Positions 8,907 to 9,316 of a DNA stretch of 64,000 nt are shown one piece after another. Each line of letters starts with the position of its first letter. Positions within the stretch are counted from its first letter, which is position 1. The notes under the pieces are model-generated. The model was not told the origin of the DNA, searched no databases, and saw only the letters and a program-made list of their open reading frames with translations. A program made the translations under genes and the position numbers. Source of the stretch: Parapedobacter lycopersici (GTDB lineage Bacteria > Bacteroidota > Bacteroidia > Sphingobacteriales > Sphingobacteriaceae). The stretch covers positions 310,001-374,000 of the forward strand of contig NZ_JAMSLW010000001.1 in the NCBI RefSeq assembly GCF_024643285.1, given 5' to 3'.

Positions 8907-9124
8907 GTGTTTTCAGTCGATTTAAAGCGCTGTATTCAGTTGATTATGATGCTTCAACCTGCGATGGCCCGCCTGAAACGAATGATGTGGTCCGGCAGAT
9001 CGCAGATATAAACATAATGAAGGCATAAAGATAATAATAATTGATTGCCCGAAGAATACGATCTGGCGTTGAATCGATGTCGCCGGTTGACCGGGCCACC
9101 GTCGGAACCGGGCCGTACCCGCGT

Positions 9125-9214
9125 TGGACTGAGTCCAGTGTGAGTCCAATATAAGTCCAGAGTGAGTCCAGGGTAAGTCCACCTTTTTTCGGAAAACTAC
9201 TGGACTCACACTGG
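9125..9214. repeat. 11-bp tandem repeat array (RAGTCCA + 4 nt) with inverted partner
   Basis: Five copies of RAGTCCA start at 9131, 9142, 9153, 9164 and 9175, each exactly 11 nt apart; the four spacer bases vary (gtgt, atat, gagt, gggt). An inverted TGGACT lies just before (9125-9130), and 9201-9214 is the exact reverse complement of 9135-9148 (14 bp). The array sits in the 410-bp gap between the sugar dehydrogenase (minus) and the UMF1 transporter (plus); the rest of that gap (8907-9124) shows nothing I recognise. Confidence 0.85.
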
Positions 9215-9316
9215 CTTCATCCTGTACGGGCGTTGCCCGGAGGCCGAACCAGGGTAAATGGAAGTACCAGCGGGTTGCTGTGATTGTACCGGCTATTTTC
9301 TATCTTAGTCCGCAGA

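Follow-up and report, generated by a model that had tools for sequence, protein, structure and literature searches.

The window, that is the whole 64,000-nucleotide stretch of Parapedobacter lycopersici DNA that was analysed, holds a phased repeat array between two divergent genes. One encodes an Atg22-like MFS transporter (PF11700; 9317-10630, plus strand) and the other a glucose/sorbosone dehydrogenase (GSDH, PF07995; 7743-8906, minus strand); both are neighbours of the element described here and neither is part of it. The sequence-only reading had placed the array upstream of the transporter gene, as it is, and downstream of nothing else, which overlooked the GSDH gene on its other side. 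Five RAGTCCA heptamers start at 9131, 9142, 9153, 9164 and 9175, exactly 11 bp apart as that reading had proposed. The fourth spacer base is T in every case, so that the unit is TRAGTCCANNN and the five TRAGTCCA octamers span 9130-9181. A second proposal also held: the 14 bp of CCAGTGTGAGTCCA (9135-9148) return inverted at 9201-9214, 52 nt separating the two. The periodicity is far beyond chance. The best lag-11 identity of the array is 25/33, against a mean of 13.1 and a maximum of 21 in 2000 dinucleotide shuffles, and none of 100 shuffles of the window reached its number of two-unit matches.

The array forms one arm, the left, of an imperfect palindrome of greater length (about 9094-9255), of which the interval originally delimited, 9125-9214, is just the inner part. 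The inner left arm (9127-9181, plus strand) consists of five NNNTRAGTCCA units with an 11-bp period, a unit that recurs in about 25 arrays of the genome. Outside it lie the degenerate 11-bp units GGCCACCGTCG, GAACCGGGCCG and TACCCGCGTTG (9094-9126, plus strand), placed in this copy by register only, on the basis of a consensus of 25 copies from the genome. The hinge, or apical loop, CCTTTTTTCGGAAAACTAC (9182-9200) leads from a T-run to an A-run and is imperfectly self-complementary; a hinge of 18-19 bp is typical of copies with a well-paired first unit. The right arm (9201-9255, minus strand) is made of the inverted units TGGACTCACAC, TGGCTTCATCC, TGTACGGGCGT, TGCCCGGAGGC and CGAACCAGGGT, the first pairing with the left arm and the others being degenerate; its outer unit, CGAACCAGGGTA, stands in inverted orientation to TACCCGCGTTG on the left side. 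Beyond the element, the promoter-like sequence TATTTTCTATCTTAG (9294-9308, plus strand) is found, little altered, in each of the nine Parapedobacter genomes, whether the element is present or not, and is probably the promoter of the transporter gene.

A dispersed family of palindromes

The repeat motif is genome-wide, not local. Exact two-unit matches to AGTCCANNNNRAGTCCA number 54 in the 3.6-Mb genome, those to its reversed control 0, and a mismatch-tolerant search yields about 25 dispersed intergenic arrays. This count bears out the suggestion that the array might belong to a small repeat family spread through the genome. Two-unit matches are present in seven of the nine Parapedobacter genomes, and P. 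defluvii and P. indicus share two orthologous copies (L071/L076 and L073/L075) in which the heptamers are mostly retained and the spacers altered. The three-unit pattern occurs in at least 107 stretches of named genomes, with Pedobacter, Myroides, Mesonia, Sphingobacterium, Chitinophaga, Flavobacterium and Kaistella among the genera; the records listed for it are presumably all from Bacteroidota, so far as they could be placed. A search of the open-access literature found no paper on this repeat.

The copies have in common a body of about 150-195 bp, which holds up to 8+8 units of 11 bp and ends sharply, with unrelated sequence on either side. In the left arm, three to five strongly conserved TGAGTCCANNN units are accompanied by outer units of CTTCG type; the hinge is made of A/T and, in copies with a well-paired first unit, mostly measures 18-19 bp; the right arm holds inverted, more degenerate units, the outer ones of CGAAGCAGGTA type. 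In the 25-copy consensus of the genome, information content in the left arm stays above background for about eight 11-bp units outwards from the hinge. The consensus from Pedobacter insulae likewise has eight units per side before falling to background, and the solo copies of that species are about 188 bp long with unrelated flanks. Among copies whose first unit is well paired, about 70% also show pairing across the hinge between the spacer letters of that innermost unit, a figure to which related copies contribute without being independent. Copies often lie directly after an intrinsic-terminator-like hairpin with a T-run, as at L099, L133, L140 (Myroides sp. N17-2) and L284 (G093), and this may reflect an insertion preference.

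A protein family linked to the palindromes

An unbiased all-against-all comparison of the proteins near the elements brought out one protein family, encoded directly beside the array at 12-13 loci in several genera. The proteins have about 245-340 aa and their genes mostly start 110-330 bp downstream of the array, with two such genes in the P. lycopersici genome for 25 solo copies. One family gene, at 232302-233168 of G000 contig C16, lies beside element L053. At L040 and L069, unlike at most loci, the element lies in reverse orientation to the family gene next to it, and this layout is conserved in two species. Among 201 Sphingobacteriaceae genomes, 76 have the protein, 22 have a two-unit array and 21 have both; the protein is thus present in 21 of the 22 array-bearing genomes vs 55 of the 179 others (Fisher p = 3e-9, uncorrected for phylogeny), an association that is in part phylogenetic.

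The family has no match in Pfam, NCBIfam, PHROGs or PADLOC, and none by sequence in the PDB. Across 37 members only one Asp and one Asn are invariant, and no catalytic motif is recognisable. The AlphaFold model (pLDDT 83, pTM 0.76) starts with a four-strand meander at the N-terminus, continues with helices at 40-90 and finishes in a C-terminal beta-sandwich; the N-terminal part modelled alone is poor (pTM 0.36). Fold searches with the model returned nothing but Ig/C2-like beta-sandwiches, aligned to its C-terminal part with a best E of 9e-4 in Foldseek and a Z of about 6 or less in VIA-align; such matches are too weak for inferring function. A plasmid or phage origin was considered and set aside, one family protein having no match in PLSDB and one having none in INPHARED, as was a role as defence system, with no PADLOC hit for the family protein.

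Distant relatives of the family point towards DUF6266 (PF19781), to which it is remotely related. The distant member L248 passes the Pfam cut-off for PF19781 through its N-terminus, the N-terminal motif GK.GN.V...G...R..P is common to both families, and of 13 genes for DUF6266 itself about four or five likewise have 11-bp arrays upstream, e.g. six copies of GCTAACTATAT at L258 and an inverted triple of CAAGGCCATAT type at L264. Yet none of the core family members that were scanned reaches the Pfam gathering score for PF19781. We found no paper on DUF6266 in the open-access literature. The distant Flavobacterium members (L225-L239), whose sequences start with MARQKGIIKLKGTIGDITFYK, mostly have no array within 450 bp. 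Upstream of these genes the opposite strand seems, by eye, to encode a small protein (fragment YIPKDIQRITG).

The arrays change with the lineage of the protein. Units upstream of family genes include, among others, TGAGTCCA, TGAGTGCA (L198, L204), TGAGTCCG (L195, L210), ATCCAAGTGTT (L213), TGTAAGTG (L221) and AAGTCCAATAT (L224), and CGGCTTTGATA is found five times at L241. The 11-bp period and the hairpin persist while these sequences change. Among lags of 5-23, lag 11 (and 22) gives the sole peak upstream of family genes and downstream regions have no peak. The lag-11 score reaches at least 20 in 54 of 106 distinct upstream regions vs none of 106 shuffles, and a hairpin with at least 14 of 16 positions paired occurs in 28 of the 106 and in no shuffle. 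The stems of these hairpins vary yet stay complementary (GTCTACC/GGTAGAC, GTCCGTG/CACGGAC, GTGCACC/GGTGCAC, GTCCTCC/GGAGGAC). The arms also covary among the copies of the element, and the possibility of a hairpin or cruciform, raised when the 14-bp inverted segment was noticed, has thereby gained support.

In G093, G013 and G130 the family gene itself occurs in near-identical dispersed copies, in which the common sequence extends from beyond the left arm of the palindrome to the stop codon. Copies within a genome are 95-99% identical, noncoding DNA included, and their flanks are unrelated. In most groups homology begins 54-140 bp to the left of the hairpin (for L276/L277 an automatic call puts it at about 240 bp). 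At the other end, relative to the stop codon, it stops within -10 to +8 bp in nearly all close pairs other than those of G070, and within -5 to +8 bp in same-genome copies at 95-99% identity; in one pair, L281/L285, it continues to +102. Selection on the gene does not explain a boundary at the stop codon, because in pairs at 97-99% identity, with both outer sides unrelated, the noncoding part is conserved as much as the coding part. Sister copies in G093 even differ in the final letters of the stop codon (GTTTT|AG vs GTTTT|GA; GATGTA|A vs GATGTA|G), as if these were supplied by the target. The left ends and the reverse-complemented right ends look weakly alike by eye. G070 (L288-L295) holds at least eight dispersed gene copies with common upstream DNA and body and a constant left boundary; there homology stops before the last 30-65 codons and the C-terminal codons vary, as though this end of the protein were hypervariable. 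A solo element stops after its right arm, whereas a gene-bearing unit stops at the stop codon, so the two may not have a right end in common. These comparisons indicate that palindrome and gene are one mobile unit. No target-site duplication was apparent by eye at the boundaries of the copies and no exact empty site was found for one G093 copy in five congeners; hence, transposition is inferred from the dispersed copies.

Nature of the element and its relation to known systems

The palindrome in the window is, in our judgement, likely to be a 'solo' copy, without a gene, of a small mobile palindromic element of Bacteroidota, dependent on and derived from a larger mobile unit made of palindrome plus gene. 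The element would consist of two inverted arms, each of up to about eight 11-bp units, round an A/T hinge of 18-19 bp. The parent unit would carry the same kind of palindrome followed by a single gene for a protein of about 245-340 aa, and would end at the stop codon of that gene. The protein would bind the 11-bp units as oligomers, along one helical face of a single arm or of both, and this binding would promote the movement or upkeep of gene-bearing and solo copies alike. Palindrome and protein co-occur, co-diverge, lie adjacent to each other and have their mobility in common. That the protein binds the units seems to us somewhat more probable than that it does not; that it catalyses movement is possible. 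It may also be a passenger or a regulator, since it has neither a recognisable catalytic motif nor a known domain. One might speculate that it serves a new class of Bacteroidota transposons as transposase or recombinase, with an inverted phased 11-bp array near the left end and its own C-terminal codons as the right end, which would also move gene-less palindromes like that of the window, but we hold this only tentatively and would sooner bet against it.

A different role for the protein would be to repress its own gene through the upstream palindrome, with solo copies acting as extra sites or decoys and the gene spreading by other means. The usual distance of the palindrome from the gene start and the co-variation of unit sequence with protein lineage would suit such an autoregulator. 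Yet palindrome and gene make up one mobile segment with sharp ends, and 25 solo copies vs two genes in one genome would still require a mechanism of spreading. We regard autoregulation of this kind as rather unlikely.

The palindrome might instead act as RNA, transcribed in a 5' leader as a long hairpin that would form a ribonucleoprotein with the protein or serve as an RNA guide or antitoxin. The predicted fold is strong on the two strands (z -3.6 and -5.7), 11 bp make one turn of an A-form helix, and the order of array, then gene recalls the layout of type III toxin-antitoxin loci and of IS110 left ends. But G-T and A-C mismatches between the arms are about equally common in units 1-4 (24/35, 78/74, 71/59 and 110/79), so that RNA-type tolerance of wobble pairs is seen on neither strand, which argues for a constraint on arm pairing at the DNA level rather than the RNA level. 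Furthermore, the arms are merely about 50-58% complementary past the first unit and the Rfam matches are at chance level, every one below the gathering score. A structured RNA is thus improbable.

The first interpretation of the array, as an operator of OmpR/PhoB type for the transporter gene, fares worse. It may be generalised to a response regulator or other transcription factor that binds the 11-bp direct repeats and controls the neighbours of all copies. The tandem 11-bp repeats do have the geometry generally known for OmpR/PhoB sites, and 13 of the 24 classifiable copies of the genome sit between divergent genes. Yet, the copies share a long body that goes beyond the heptamers, with two inverted arms and a long hairpin, near-identical copies travel with a gene, and the genes adjoining different copies are unrelated to one another. 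Nor is the element conserved with the gene it should regulate. In G001 the same gene pair lies back to back with an intergenic region of about 75 bp that is free of the element, as are the orthologous transporter genes of the other Parapedobacter species; comparison of the locus in relatives, suggested as a check on a regulatory role, therefore speaks against one. What is little changed in all nine Parapedobacter genomes is TTTCTATCTTAG, just upstream of the transporter start and outside the element. We consider an operator very improbable. Lastly, a classical REP/REPIN mobilised by a RAYT (Y1, HUH) transposase is barely credible: solo palindromes together with a gene-linked palindrome make up the REPIN/RAYT pattern (PMC3116915), but the P. 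lycopersici genome has no Y1_Tnp match despite about 25 copies, which refutes this reading there unless the transposase was lost, the nine Parapedobacter genomes have a single broken one, and a Pfam search of the linked protein gives no Y1_Tnp hit.

The most economical reading remains a two-part system, in which a protein would recognise phased units and DNA elements would exist with or without its gene; the element may be one of a class of bacterial mobile elements that has yet to be described. A protein family of so far uncharacterised function is tied to a DNA site that is specific and diverges fast, so that binding assays could test this function directly. If the protein does move the element, transposition would here rely on a protein that differs from known transposases. 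More generally, an operator for a response regulator should not be the default reading of 11-bp phased arrays in intergenic regions of Bacteroidota.

Arrays of 11-bp direct repeats are bound by OmpR/PhoB-type regulators and, at parC, by ParR. Our element shares with them the direct repeats on one helical face, but differs in its inverted arms round a hinge, its dispersed mobile copies and its unrelated linked protein family. It resembles MITEs and their parent insertion sequences in having short non-autonomous and longer gene-bearing copies, sharp ends and inverted arms; yet here no target-site duplication is apparent by eye, the linked gene encodes no recognised transposase and the 11-bp array is long and internal. 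There is also a likeness to REPIN/RAYT pairs (PMC3116915, PMC3733652), which likewise have small, dispersed, mostly extragenic palindromes, a dedicated gene with a related palindrome at its side, many solo copies for few genes, and separate subfamilies. But the protein linked here is not a Y1/HUH transposase, and the gene-bearing unit is itself found in dispersed near-identical copies. Instead of a REP pair of 20-40 bp, the element has about 150-195 bp with 11-bp phased arms that reach eight units, and no GTAG/CGTC tag was seen in the aligned element ends. By analogy, it appears to work as REPIN/RAYT pairs do, yet it is not one of them.
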